Under the pieces are notes generated by a model. The model ran no database searches. It was not told the origin of the DNA and saw only the letters and a program-made list of their open reading frames with translations. A stretch of DNA of 64,000 nucleotides, from positions 104,961 through 168,960 of the forward strand of contig JASLWR010000001.1 of NCBI GenBank assembly GCA_030740765.1, read 5' to 3'. This DNA comes from Thermoplasmatota archaeon (GTDB lineage Archaea > Thermoplasmatota > Penumbrarchaeia > JASLWR01). A program made the position numbers and the translations under genes. Positions 4,966-40,484 of this stretch are shown here, piece after piece (position 1 is the first letter of the stretch; each line of letters starts with the position of its first letter).

Positions 4966-5027
4966 GTGCGGCGGGCACCGTAAAGCACGTCCTGTTGCGA
5001 GGGAAAACTGTTCTCCAGCGATGAATC

Positions 5028-5130
5028 ACCCACAGATGGATCTGTGGGTTTCATCCTCGGAAACGCAGGAATCTGCTTCCTCTTCTCCGCCCCCACCAAA
5101 CGGTGGGGGTTACCGAAGAGGATTCCTGCG
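5028..5130. repeat. Two adjacent strong hairpins in an intergenic stretch (structured RNA, mobile-element end or terminator)
   Basis: The 4966-5254 gap holds no gene. It holds a perfect 10-bp hairpin (5028-5037 with 5040-5049, two-base loop). A longer hairpin follows: outer arms 5064-5073 and 5121-5130 (CGCAGGAATC and its complement), a middle stem 5080-5085/5115-5120, and an inner GC stem 5090-5097/5102-5109 closing on AAAC. A short perfect hairpin followed by TTTCA resembles IS200/IS605 termini, but no transposase is nearby. Terminator or leader RNA are alternatives. Confidence 0.6.
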
Positions 5131-5254
5131 GATGGAATGAACATCGGTGGATGATCCATTATTTGCGAGAAATATCCGGACCAAAACTTATTTTGGGCAT
5201 AACGCCGATATATGCTGGTTTATTTTACTAGACCCCATACAAGGTCGTGGCCAA

Positions 5255-21674: not shown

Positions 21675-22244
21675 ATGATAAGATCGAAAATATGGTTTAG
21701 ATGTGCAGTGGTCCACGACCCGGTCACCCCAAAGATAGTACGGCCCGCTGTCATAGGTTGGGATGCAAAGCAGCGCAGCATTGACCTTACTATAGAGAGA
21801 TCATTCAAGGGAGATGAACTGCTCAGGCGCATGAAAGGCTGGATCACGGTGCGGACTAGGGATGTCATCGAGGTTGTGAGCAAGCACGGCAGGTTGAACA
21901 TGCTTGACGAGAGGGATCTGGTGGTTGAATATTGTCACAAGTGCGAAGTTCGACAGAATGTCGAGATTTGCATTTGTGACAATGTTCGCGGAATCGCAGC
22001 CTGTAGATTTCCGCAGAAAATCGAAGGCTCAGCAATGCCCAAAGGGTATTGCGTAGCCTGACCGCACACTTGCGGGCAGGGATAGGAACATCTCTGATGT
22101 TTCAAGACGAAGTGGGAGCCTGAAAGGACCGATTCCGCTGAATACGACAGCGTGGAAGATTTCGAGGCACTAAAGGTCGAAATGAAAAAGAATTTTGGCT
22201 CGGAGGTCGAAGTGGAGCTGATCGAGGAAAAGAAAGTGTGGTGA
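21675..22244 (+). pseudogene. Small hypothetical gene split by a 213-bp hairpin element
   Basis: The reading frame from ATG 21675 gives about 85 normal residues ending RDLVVEY. It then enters the inserted element and stops at 22059-22061. Removing the element together with one TA joins codon GAA to TAC GAC AGC, and the frame continues DSVEDFEALKVEMKKNF... to a TGA at 22242. The restored protein would be about 121 residues, mixed alpha/beta, with no family I recognise. The inserted length (213 bases) is a multiple of three, but it carries a stop codon, so the gene is broken unless the truncated product works. Confidence 0.7.
21932..22142 (+). mobile_element. Hairpin element, long form (211 bp plus TA)
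   Basis: Begins TTGTCACAA and ends CCGATTCCGCTGAA, with TA on both sides. The left end folds as TTGTCACAA...TTGTGACAA around GACAGAATGTC. The right part is a 12-bp stem (GCGGAATCG with its complement) enclosing about 120 bases of smaller hairpins (CAATGCCC-AAA-GGGTATTG; CCGCACACTTGCGG; AACATC-TCT-GATGTT). There is no ORF for a transposase. It shares both ends with the short copy at 26479 and is likely a non-autonomous element. Confidence 0.75.
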
Positions 22245-26221: not shown

Positions 26222-27490
26222 TTACGGCATCAGCCGCCACTTCCAGTAGGGCCGAAAAACGATCCTTCTCCCGTTCTTAATTATTTCATCTTCGAAATCC
26301 AATGTAATGACCAATCCCTCGTCCTTGTCGAAATGGAGCATGGATTCCGCCATGGACTTCAGTTCCCGATCCATCGTTTCCGGGGCGGCGGGTTCCAGGC
26401 AAACATTGATCAGTTCTTTTATCTCGTCATCTTGTCTCAATACGAAATCGGTCTCGGTTCTTCCCCTCCAGTAGTATATTGTCAATGGTGCGAAGTTCGA
26501 CAATATGTCAGATTTCGCAGCTTGACAATGTTCGCGGAATCGAGGTCCCGAAGGGCCGATTCCGCTGAATATGTCTTGATTTTCCCTCCGGAGGTCGAGA
26601 TAGACACGGTTTTCAAGGAGCCTGCCCCGGTCGCCGGAGAAACGAAATGATACCTCTTGCCTGAGACCGTTGTCGATGGCATAGACCTTCCGGGGCATGG
26701 CCATCTGCTCCTTGAGAGAGAACGCATAAAACGGCACGAAGGAAAACAGGAATGAGGACGAGAAATATCCAGTGAACCGGTCGATGGTATCGAGTGATAT
26801 CTTGGGGGAGAGAGCCTTTCTCGTGGCGGAATAGGACATGGAATTAGCTATATTCGTCATGTAGTAAGATGCCAGGGCTTCGAGCTTCCGGGCATCCTTG
26901 ATATGGAATCTGGTAACGATGTCCCTGTGCAGTATATCGTAGTAGGTTTGCCGTAAAAGTTCCGCTCTAACGTTGTCGTTTGGCTCTAGTACTACTCGAG
27001 GAAAACCGCCCCGCTGGATGAATTCATTCGTATAGCCTTTGAGCTCTGCGCTGTCGGCGATGATGGATACAGGATCAGATGGAAGATGATCATTGAACTG
27101 CAGAAATTCAGCCAGGTCCAGTGGGAATACCTCCATTTCTAGGTGACGTCCCGTCAACAGCGTTGCGAATTCCTCGGACATCAGAGCGCTTGATGATCCG
27201 GTAACGAATATCTTCACGTCCTCCCTTCTGTCGTGGACGCTAGTTACCCACCGCTCCCACTGAGGTACCATCTGAATCTCGTCAAGCACCAGATATATGC
27301 GTCCCTCAGGGTGGAAAAAAACCCTGTAGGCGTCCACGATGAATTGAAGAATATTATCCTGGCCATTGGATGAGAACTTTGGGTCCTCGAAATTGACATA
27401 AAGGGTGTTCACTGGTAATATCCCGCGTGCTTCTATGAGATCTTCGAGCACCTGCAATAAAAGAGTCGTCTTTCCGGATGAAATGGGCAT
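26222..27490 (-). CDS. AAA-type ATPase (AAA_14/DUF4143), N-terminally truncated and carrying an in-frame element
   Basis: 422 residues. The fold matches the archaeal/bacterial AAA_14 plus DUF4143 family: P-loop remnant PISSGKTTLLLQ, Walker B YLVLDEIQMVPQWE, sensor FVTGSSSALMS, DUF4143 C-domain with RGGFPRV, and the restriction-like end YYWRGRTETDFVL. Two oddities. The protein starts inside the P-loop, so the first conserved Gly (GPRRSGKTT is usual) and about 40 N-terminal residues are missing; the DNA just upstream belongs to a different gene remnant. Also, 31 residues between RRENQD and IYYWRGR are encoded by a hairpin element (26479-26569). Probably inactive, though still open end to end. 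Confidence 0.8.
   Translation of the reverse strand: MPISSGKTTLLLQVLEDLIEARGILPVNTLYVNFEDPKFSSNGQDNILQFIVDAYRVFFHPEGRIYLVLDEIQMVPQWERWVTSVHDRREDVKIFVTGSSSALMSEEFATLLTGRHLEMEVFPLDLAEFLQFNDHLPSDPVSIIADSAELKGYTNEFIQRGGFPRVVLEPNDNVRAELLRQTYYDILHRDIVTRFHIKDARKLEALASYYMTNIANSMSYSATRKALSPKISLDTIDRFTGYFSSSFLFSFVPFYAFSLKEQMAMPRKVYAIDNGLRQEVSFRFSGDRGRLLENRVYLDLRRENQDIFSGIGPSGPRFREHCQAAKSDILSNFAPLTIYYWRGRTETDFVLRQDDEIKELINVCLEPAAPETMDRELKSMAESMLHFDKDEGLVITLDFEDEIIKNGRRIVFRPYWKWRLMP
26479..26569 (+). mobile_element. Hairpin element, short form (91 bp plus TA), inserted in frame in the ATPase gene
   Basis: Same ends as the long copy: TTGTCA on the left, CCGATTCCGCTGAA on the right, TA on each side. It folds into two hairpins: TTGTCAA...TTGACAA enclosing TGCGAA/TTCGCA and GACA-ATA-TGTC, then GCGGAATCG with its complement around GGTCCC-GAA-GGGCC. 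Removing 93 bases restores QDIYYWRGR, the expected family sequence. In the reading direction of the ATPase the element has no stop and adds 31 residues. Confidence 0.8.
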
Positions 27491-27509
27491 GGTATTTCCT
27501 ATAACTTGT

Positions 27510-27794
27510 CTGCTACCAAATCCCTGGGGCCTTTACGACATGCTGGGCAATGTTTGGGAATGGTGCAGGCCTGGTGGGAGATACAAGTATTACGGCGGGG
27601 CGGGAGGATACAGCAGGGGACGTGATCTCATGCCTTGGGGAAAGGGAGGCGAGCTCATAGGTGAACGATTTTGCGAGAGGCAATCTCAAAAAAGACACCC
27701 TTTGTTCTCCTTTCGCCTGATTGCCAGACCGAATAAGAGTAAGCATGTCAAAGCGTTCAAGGAGGTGAGGGGCGATGAGCCAGATGATCGATAA
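27510..27794 (+). pseudogene. 3' remnant of a formylglycine-generating-enzyme-like (FGE-sulfatase domain) gene
   Basis: The frame reads PNPWGLYDMLGNVWEWC, the hallmark of the FGE-sulfatase/SUMF1 fold, then a degenerate glycine-rich part and FSFRLIAR, the usual end of the domain (GFRLV/IR). The several hundred bases that should precede it are absent: directly upstream, on the other strand, is the truncated start of the ATPase gene. Both genes are therefore cut at about 27490-27510, marking a rearrangement junction. The stop at about 27792 overlaps the start of the next gene. Confidence 0.75.
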
Positions 27795-28305
27795 AAAGCT
27801 ACTCCTCGGGAACAAGGCATACCCCCTTAAAACCCACAGCTCAAACGACGATATTATTGTATTCGCAAAGGGTTTAAAGATAAAAAGCATCAAAATCCCC
27901 ATTAAGGACGACGAGAAGCGTTTTGACACGGCAGCGTTACAGGGGCAGATACCATCTATGCTTATGGGAGGAAAATGGCACATCATCTTGTTTGATGAGA
28001 TTGTTTCGGTCAAGCAATTCGAAGGCGATAAACCCAATTTCTCTTTCATTGGGGGTATGAAGAACCAGAAATATCAATACCTCGAATTCTTGATCCGAAC
28101 AATAGATCCGGACGAGAAATTCATGGTTACCTATGACGATCCTGATCCAGAGCGCTTCAAGGAAGTTCGTGATACACTCAAAGAAGGGATGGGAAGAAAT
28201 ACTTGGGAAAATAAGTTGGAAACGGCATTGACTACTTATCCAGAAAATACGAAGGATTGGCAGGAATATTTTTCCCTCATCAGAGAATTTTATGACACCG
28301 ATTGA
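27775..28305 (+). CDS. Hypothetical protein
   Basis: 176 residues beginning MSQMIDKKLLLG, with a GGTGAGGGGCG purine run just before the ATG. The first 115 residues are strand-rich (DDIIVFAKGLKIKSIKIPI, WHIILFDEIVSVKQFEG), suggesting a small beta domain; the last 60 are helical and charged. No signal peptide, membrane segment or metal motif is present, and I recognise no family. It overlaps the degraded FGE-like remnant, so it may be part of the same imported or rearranged block. Confidence 0.65.
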   Translation: MSQMIDKKLLLGNKAYPLKTHSSNDDIIVFAKGLKIKSIKIPIKDDEKRFDTAALQGQIPSMLMGGKWHIILFDEIVSVKQFEGDKPNFSFIGGMKNQKYQYLEFLIRTIDPDEKFMVTYDDPDPERFKEVRDTLKEGMGRNTWENKLETALTTYPENTKDWQEYFSLIREFYDTD

Positions 28306-29011: not shown

Positions 29012-29096
29012 GGGCCAACCTGATCTCTTAACGTGTAGCGAAAAGGTATTTGTATAGCAGGGGGAAAGACCCTCGGCGAATCAAGATTCACCTGGT

Positions 29097-29278
29097 TCGG
29101 CCAATGCGTTAATTGGCCGACTTCTTCCTGCAACCCCTTTCTTTTTATGCCGTCCAGGGGTCGTACGCGACTCCTGTAATGGTAATAAAAGAGGGATGGG
29201 GTTTGGGGAAGGGATTCTTCCCTTCCCCACACCTGTTAAACAAATACGAAACAATGGGGAGGAAATCGACTCCTCCCC
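29097..29278. terminator. Three consecutive GC-rich hairpins downstream of the hydrolase gene
   Basis: In the 29012-29298 gap: TCGGCCAAT/ATTGGCCGA (29097-29105 with 29112-29120), GGGGAAGGGA/TCCCTTCCCC (29205-29214 with 29219-29228) and GGGGAGGA/TCCTCCCC (29256-29263 with 29271-29278). They follow the hydrolase stop on the minus strand and probably help end or process its transcript. Confidence 0.6.
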
Positions 29279-40109: not shown

Positions 40110-40174
40110 TAGATTATTGCATAATATCTTTAAATATGGATATTCGTTATCGATAAATAACTCGCTAATGACCT

Positions 40175-40220
40175 TACTTGAAAAGGCGGGTACCGACATA
40201 GAATCAGAGATTCTATTAGG
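40175..40220 (+). repeat. 46-bp hairpin repeat, copy 1
   Basis: Starts TACTTGAAAA and ends in a 7-bp hairpin TAGAATC-AGA-GATTCTA followed by TTAGG. A second copy is at 61067-61112, 41 of 46 bases identical, with the differences confined to the middle eight bases. Both lie between genes. Confidence 0.8.
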
Positions 40221-40470
40221 GTTCGATGAACTATGTTCATCATCACCTACTGGCCCGGCTTGAAAGGCTTGACCGCATCCTGTTTGCGGGGTAACGTTCC
40301 CGCAAATACAGATGTATGTACCATACATCAGGAGCGGGCAAGTGAGACGCGTCGGTAAACGCGTCAACATTGACGTGCCAGTATGGTACGTCTTCACTTG
40401 AAAAGTCGAGTCATACTGGCGGCTTGAAAGTTTGGCGAGCCAGAAGGGTCGCCTTCACTTATCTATTGAA
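40175..40470 (+). ncRNA. Candidate structured RNA or long leader before the 673-residue membrane protein gene
   Basis: The 375-base gap has no ORF but a chain of short hairpins: TAGAATC/GATTCTA; GATGAAC-TAT-GTTCATC; TTTGCGGG/CCCGCAAA; GATGTATG-TAC-CATACATC; GACGCGT/ACGCGTC; GCCAGTATG/CATACTGGC enclosing CTTGAAAA; and GGCGA/TCGCC. The phrase CTTGAAA recurs four times, each near a stem. It could be a small RNA, a riboswitch-like leader for the downstream gene, or a decayed mobile element. Boundaries are approximate. Confidence 0.5.
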
Positions 40471-40484
40471 CATGGACGAAAACC

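Follow-up and report, generated by a model that had tools for sequence, protein, structure and literature searches.

An in-frame double-hairpin insertion in an archaeal ATPase gene, its family of nested palindromes and a related coding unit in a sister genus

The window, i.e., the whole stretch of 64,000 nucleotides that was analysed, carries on its reverse strand a gene for an ATPase, in which the initial annotation had recognised a hairpin element inserted in frame at 26479-26569. This claim was borne out. The conserved ends ATATTGTC...GCTGAAT were located at 26476-26570, and the net insert was delimited as 93 bp (26478-26570), with boundaries that can be shifted by one or two bases owing to the AT on either flank. 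The features of the locus are as follows.

26222..27490, reverse strand: host gene, AAA_14/DUF4143 ATPase, N-terminally truncated; the start-less open frame reaches 27529
26478..26570, forward strand: 93-bp insertion in the ATPase gene, a double-hairpin element; its conserved ends start at 26476, including the flanking AT
26476..26532, forward strand: hairpin 1 (ATATTGTCAA.../...TTGACAATGT), consensus structure with covarying pairs
26534..26565, forward strand: hairpin 2 (GCGGAATCG/CGATTCCGC), consensus structure

The insertion in the ATPase gene

The element folds into two adjacent hairpins with a z score of -7.3 as RNA and -7.1 as DNA, and none of 200 shuffles was found to be as stable. As had been annotated, no stop is encountered in the direction of the ATPase, whose frame on the reverse strand remains open across the element and gains 31 residues from it. 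Removal of the 93 bases was expected to restore the sequence QDIYYWRGR, and an IYYW-like motif is indeed contiguous in 19 aligned DUF4143 homologues from related genomes, directly after the insert point. The 31 residues are carried by none of these homologues, each of which fills six or fewer of the 31 insert columns (range 0-6), and this absence is matched by a genome search in which the ATPase matches break at residue 303-308 and restart at 336-338. The 93-bp element is hereby confirmed as a real in-frame insertion inside an archaeal ATPase gene. No empty site for this copy came from a close relative, the nearest genomes searched being those of other families.

The host protein lacks about 45 N-terminal residues in comparison with the 19 aligned homologues, for which reason it is not a clean example of a coding element. 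Its N-terminus is cut within window positions 27500-27800, where an unrelated gene fragment with GLYDMLGNVWEW starts on the other strand; the join may be attributed either to a fusion by deletion or to an assembly join. The GLYDMLGNVWEW motif is typical of formylglycine-generating-enzyme-like proteins.

A nested hairpin family in the source genome

The source genome comprises 3.59 Mb in 158 contigs, with an archaeal SSU rRNA match on contig 99. The element directly reveals itself there as a repeat family, with at least 42 BLAST matches (40 of 95 candidates scored) and at least 99 covariance-model matches, antisense self-matches included (150 of 1181 candidates scored), while the hairpin-1 pattern, at most two mismatches being allowed, gave 94 matches versus one for the reversed control. 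These totals, and that of the 51-nt unit given below, are lower bounds because scoring covered 40 of 95, 150 of 1181 and 150 of 1731 first-look candidates, respectively. For the delimitation of copies, 83 stretches (796 kb) were fetched, 12 antisense self-matches were left out among 87 family matches, element starts without a recognisable end were dropped from 125, and five copies were then added by hand, which resulted in 80 copies with both ends. The 93-bp element is absent from the 36 other genomes searched, and neither of two patterns was matched exactly in viral_contigs. The exact hairpin-1 pattern gave 34 single matches in named genomes, scattered over unrelated bacteria, which were read as chance.

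Three further loci (L117:5003, L131:4920 and L137:5002) harbour the element at an identical place with identical flanks and constitute three copies of a longer duplicated segment; their elements were copied along with the segment, as is indicated by the shared place and flanks. A different repeat family, with the outer sequence ATGAATCACCCACAGAT.../...GGATTCCTGCGGATG and inner hairpins, lies at window positions 5021-5134 and is also found at L128:3993 and L164:629 and partly at L117:4502.

The structure of the family is compensatory. Among 18 full copies of the 93-bp form, pair-keeping changes on both sides were observed at 11 of 34 base pairs, in both hairpins, and the median z score of 79 copies is -6.75 (12 mononucleotide shuffles each; one copy of more than 600 bp left out). 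Such strong predicted folds, together with pair-keeping changes in both the 93-bp and the 51-nt forms, are also what would be displayed by transcribed structured RNAs of a regulatory or terminator-like kind, kept for function and enlarged by hairpins added as RNA domains. We consider this explanation very improbable, since the pairing is equally expected from DNA hairpins, the elements lie in both orientations, in and between genes, and at very variable length, and none was matched by an Rfam family in the five loci searched, where archaeal SSU rRNA alone scored above the gathering cut-off.

The longer copies keep the outer ends and contain extra hairpins inside, reaching about 600 bp. Further features of the window are involved here.

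21929..22143, forward strand: second, longer copy (215 bp; net 213 bp), which interrupts a short gene with in-frame stops
22055..22107, forward strand: double-hairpin unit of about 51 nt inside the 21929-22143 element, matched by model R2
29071..29122, reverse strand: double hairpin of 51 nt inside a different array of hairpins, matched by model R2
40281..40333, forward strand: double hairpin of 51 nt, nested within a larger array of hairpins at about 40170-40480

Pairwise alignment of copies, with one copy of more than 600 bp left out and four partial copies added, yielded 164 insertion events of discrete lengths, of which 30 measure 50-52 bp and 19 measure 66-68 bp, accompanied by larger size groups. 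The 51-bp unit itself consists of two hairpins, and 15 such units were recovered in about 0.84 Mb by a stringent scan with the loop TNACGN, versus none with six control loops; in their alignment, 99.2% of cells are paired and both partners have changed at 12 of 17 pairs, a figure that is biased because perfect stems were required when most seeds were selected. The model of the 51-nt unit (R2) detected at least 67 places in the genome at E <= 0.01, seeds included (150 of 1731 candidates scored), and the 22 places inspected beyond the 93-bp family lie mostly in other hairpin arrays, outside long ORFs. The composite array at 40170-40480 has a z score of -6.4 as DNA, and its outer repeats are seen elsewhere in the genome. 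The larger finding is one of recursion, in which hairpin units are set inside hairpin elements.

With respect to the positions of nesting, 70 junctions of 48-70 bp inserts were analysed. Hairpin apices account for 30 of the 70 versus 23.5% of random positions, and stems for 6 of the 70 versus 23.8%. The loop GTAACG, suggested by several units as a fixed nesting target, was rejected, as it occurs at 4 of the 70 junctions versus 3.3% of all positions.

The relation of the family to genes was evaluated by leaving out the element and asking whether the empty site falls within an ORF of at least 100 residues with codon use like that of long genes. Ten of the 80 empty sites lie in coding ORFs, in comparison with 1578 of 2000 random positions from the same stretches, which makes in-gene placement the exception for this family in the source genome. 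The net length is divisible by three in six of these ten copies, five of which remain open, namely those in the ATPase, a glycerate kinase-like protein, a TPR protein, a TraB-like protein (below the Pfam cut-off) and a protein without family. The glycerate kinase-like protein (DUF4147 and MOFRL domains) accommodates a 219-bp insert, equivalent to 73 residues without stops; its homologues end near residue 435 and resume at 518-527, and the MOFRL domain is split and matched in two stretches. The element stands near the C-terminus of the TraB-like protein and near the N-terminus of the family-less protein, and these two cases are weaker because of its closeness to the ORF end. The sixth copy with a length divisible by three, at 21929-22143, introduces stops. 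At least one further in-gene copy, that at L099:9259, shifts the frame of its gene. Since the open cases use both strands and more than one frame of the element, the 93-bp form encodes no fixed peptide.

The initial annotation had likened the insert to the protein-coding palindromes of Rickettsia and had proposed counting the copies genome-wide and their share in genes. The likeness holds for the ATPase insert, which is palindromic, in frame and absent from homologues, and for the four further copies that keep their ORF open; it fails for the family in its own genome, where the share in coding ORFs is far below chance and some copies break the gene. The same counts may be taken to describe an ordinary intergenic family similar to MITE or REP sequences, whose in-frame copy would have survived by chance in a gene undergoing decay and would be uninformative on coding. 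The 70 copies outside coding ORFs, the loss of the ATPase N-terminus beside a fragment of an unrelated gene and the broken frames at L099:9259 and at window 21929-22143 point in this direction. We nevertheless regard this reading as rather unlikely, in view of the five in-gene copies that are in frame and open, including that in the conserved glycerate kinase-like gene, and of the sister genus described below, where 31 of the 38 sites code in a single frame. As to the MITE definition, the two ends, ATATTGTC and GCTGAAT, do not form an inverted pair and the element consists of two separate hairpins in place of terminal inverted repeats; AT is present at both ends in nearly all copies, on account of which a 2-bp target-site duplication and a fixed AT end are indistinguishable.

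IS200/IS605-derived elements, including REP/RAYT and PATE, are defined by a Y1 transposase that shares the same subterminal hairpins. Four PF01797 hits for Y1 transposases exist in the genome, two of them near full length, and their flanks (L168-L171) are devoid of the family ends; Y1 transposase was consequently rejected as the carrier, and no parent transposon sharing these ends was found near the four hits. Reverse transcriptase gave no match in the source genome, and it is uncorrelated with the unit, being present in one of three unit-bearing sister species and in two of four class members without the unit.

A related coding unit in a sister genus

Model R2 also matches two genomes of another family of the same class, mostly within protein genes; a match in a further genome, G128 (2.5e-4), was judged weak and left unused. 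Three species of one genus in that family, the sister genus, contain the palindrome GACGAATC-N(2-6)-GATTCGTC at 12, 16 and 10 sites (38 in total); it is present at one site in the source genome and at none in eight other class members searched, the reversed control giving zero, and a longer version of the pattern is confined to those three species among 389 genomes of the phylum. The 51-nt units of the source genome and of the sister family may be considered homologous on the basis of covariance-model matches, the best at 3.4e-7, and shared flank motifs.

Of these 38 sites, 31 are read in one fixed frame as DESxDSS within acidic protein regions (one of them, at a contig end, was assigned via its orthologue), and the remaining seven lie outside long ORFs. 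A truly coding-dominated archaeal palindrome does exist, accordingly, in relatives of the source organism, within one genus. Several proteins of this genus (L196-L227) contain long acidic stretches that consist largely of 17-residue palindromic units, some of them nested, which are read through as protein.

Hairpin A, which was not used for selection, is paired in 89.0% of cells in the 31 uninterrupted units (seven interrupted units of the 38 left out) versus 57.8% in shuffles, and its covariation amounts to 0.840 versus 0.269 (0 of 500 shuffles, which related sequences can beat without structure; slid controls at most 0.21). Moreover, exact gains were observed between orthologues. In L200, 51 bp have been gained within the loop of hairpin A, in a unit whose L225 counterpart is uninterrupted, and gains of 102 bp are present in L220 and absent from L197, and present in L227 and absent from L209; L196 and L216 represent the same gene with units at different places.

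It might be argued that these units are a protein tandem repeat spread by slippage and gene conversion, with the palindrome as a by-product of the peptide, given that some copies stand head to tail at exactly 51 bp and that the peptide is acidic and of low complexity. This account appears improbable to us, because single units occur in unrelated genes, seven of 38 sites are outside long ORFs, one gain was made within the loop of a different unit, and the stems of hairpin A change in step while the residues differ (RGGIHS, RESIRS, QNGDSE).

Known systems and the proposed explanation

Rickettsia palindromic elements (Ogata et al. 2000, 2002; PMC10969869, PMC3767692) are bacterial sequences of about 100-150 bp, of which nearly half of the copies initially described lay in ORFs. 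The source-genome family resembles them in placing palindromes in frame in unrelated genes, with many families and the host protein apparently kept. An in-frame palindrome without destruction of the ORF is seen here in only 5 of 80 copies, and frequent placement in ORFs, a feature of the Rickettsia elements, is a property of the sister-genus unit and not of the source-genome family, which is mostly intergenic and built of nested units. A coding palindrome is reported from another archaeon, Methanocaldococcus jannaschii (Suyama et al. 2005), according to the title of that paper and to a citing sentence in PMC2996958.

Nesting has a precedent in the organelle palindromes of Volvox carteri, which measure about 50 nt, are nested and form compound repeats of up to 633 nt in mtDNA (PMC2670323). 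The source family likewise sets palindromes inside palindromes but differs from those of Volvox, which reside in organelle DNA, have TAAA or TTTA loops and, according to the same source, are intergenic or intronic only, save for one rRNA module. Mitochondrial double-hairpin elements likewise consist of double hairpins, though of organelle DNA. PARCEL repeats of bacteria and eukaryotes are, like the sister-genus unit, coding repeats with palindromic DNA; they are 75-nt, 25-residue, amphipathic tandem repeats (PMC2996958), whereas the sister-genus unit is 51 nt long, acidic and often single. The tandem repeats of Borgs, which are extrachromosomal, add disordered protein segments in archaea as well but are direct rather than palindromic, the word "palindrome" being absent from the main text of the report (PMC9879509). 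A literature search that reached few subscription papers brought up no account of palindromes, nested or coding, in the present archaeal group. An archaeal analogue of the Rickettsia coding palindromes exists, for which an archaeal precedent is cited in print (M. jannaschii, 2005), and nesting is known from Volvox organelles.

Taken as a whole, the feature is probably one copy of a non-autonomous mobile double-hairpin family, spread through the genome, whose longer copies are built by nested units. Minimal copies would be two adjacent hairpins of about 93 bp, into whose loops and junctions smaller units, likewise double hairpins with a modal length of 51 bp and a second size of about 66 bp, may insert to generate tree-like structures, with a likely preference for DNA that is unpaired in the folded state. 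Selection in the source genome would leave most copies between genes, and survival within genes would be expected mainly where the length is a multiple of three and the frame is open, as in the ATPase. In the sister family, the related 51-bp (17-codon) unit may be tolerated in acidic, probably disordered regions and inherited in frame. We infer that an enzyme acting in trans recognises the folded single strand and drives the movement, and that the 51-bp units form one system with the 93-bp element.

A wider reading, which we advance tentatively and with somewhat less than even confidence, is that one archaeal class hosts a mobile DNA whose unit is a 17-codon folded double hairpin, recognised by shape more than by sequence and preferring the loops of its own copies, which would grow recursively into tree-like noncoding arrays and, within a single genus, would give rise to acidic peptides in frame, with nested units read through. 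The system is a clear example, from archaea, of palindromic mobile DNA that builds protein, and single exact insertions distinguish the members of its species triplets. The way in which the units move, recognition of the fold as opposed to the sequence, and the possibility that new disordered protein segments arise from in-frame selfish DNA thereby become testable.
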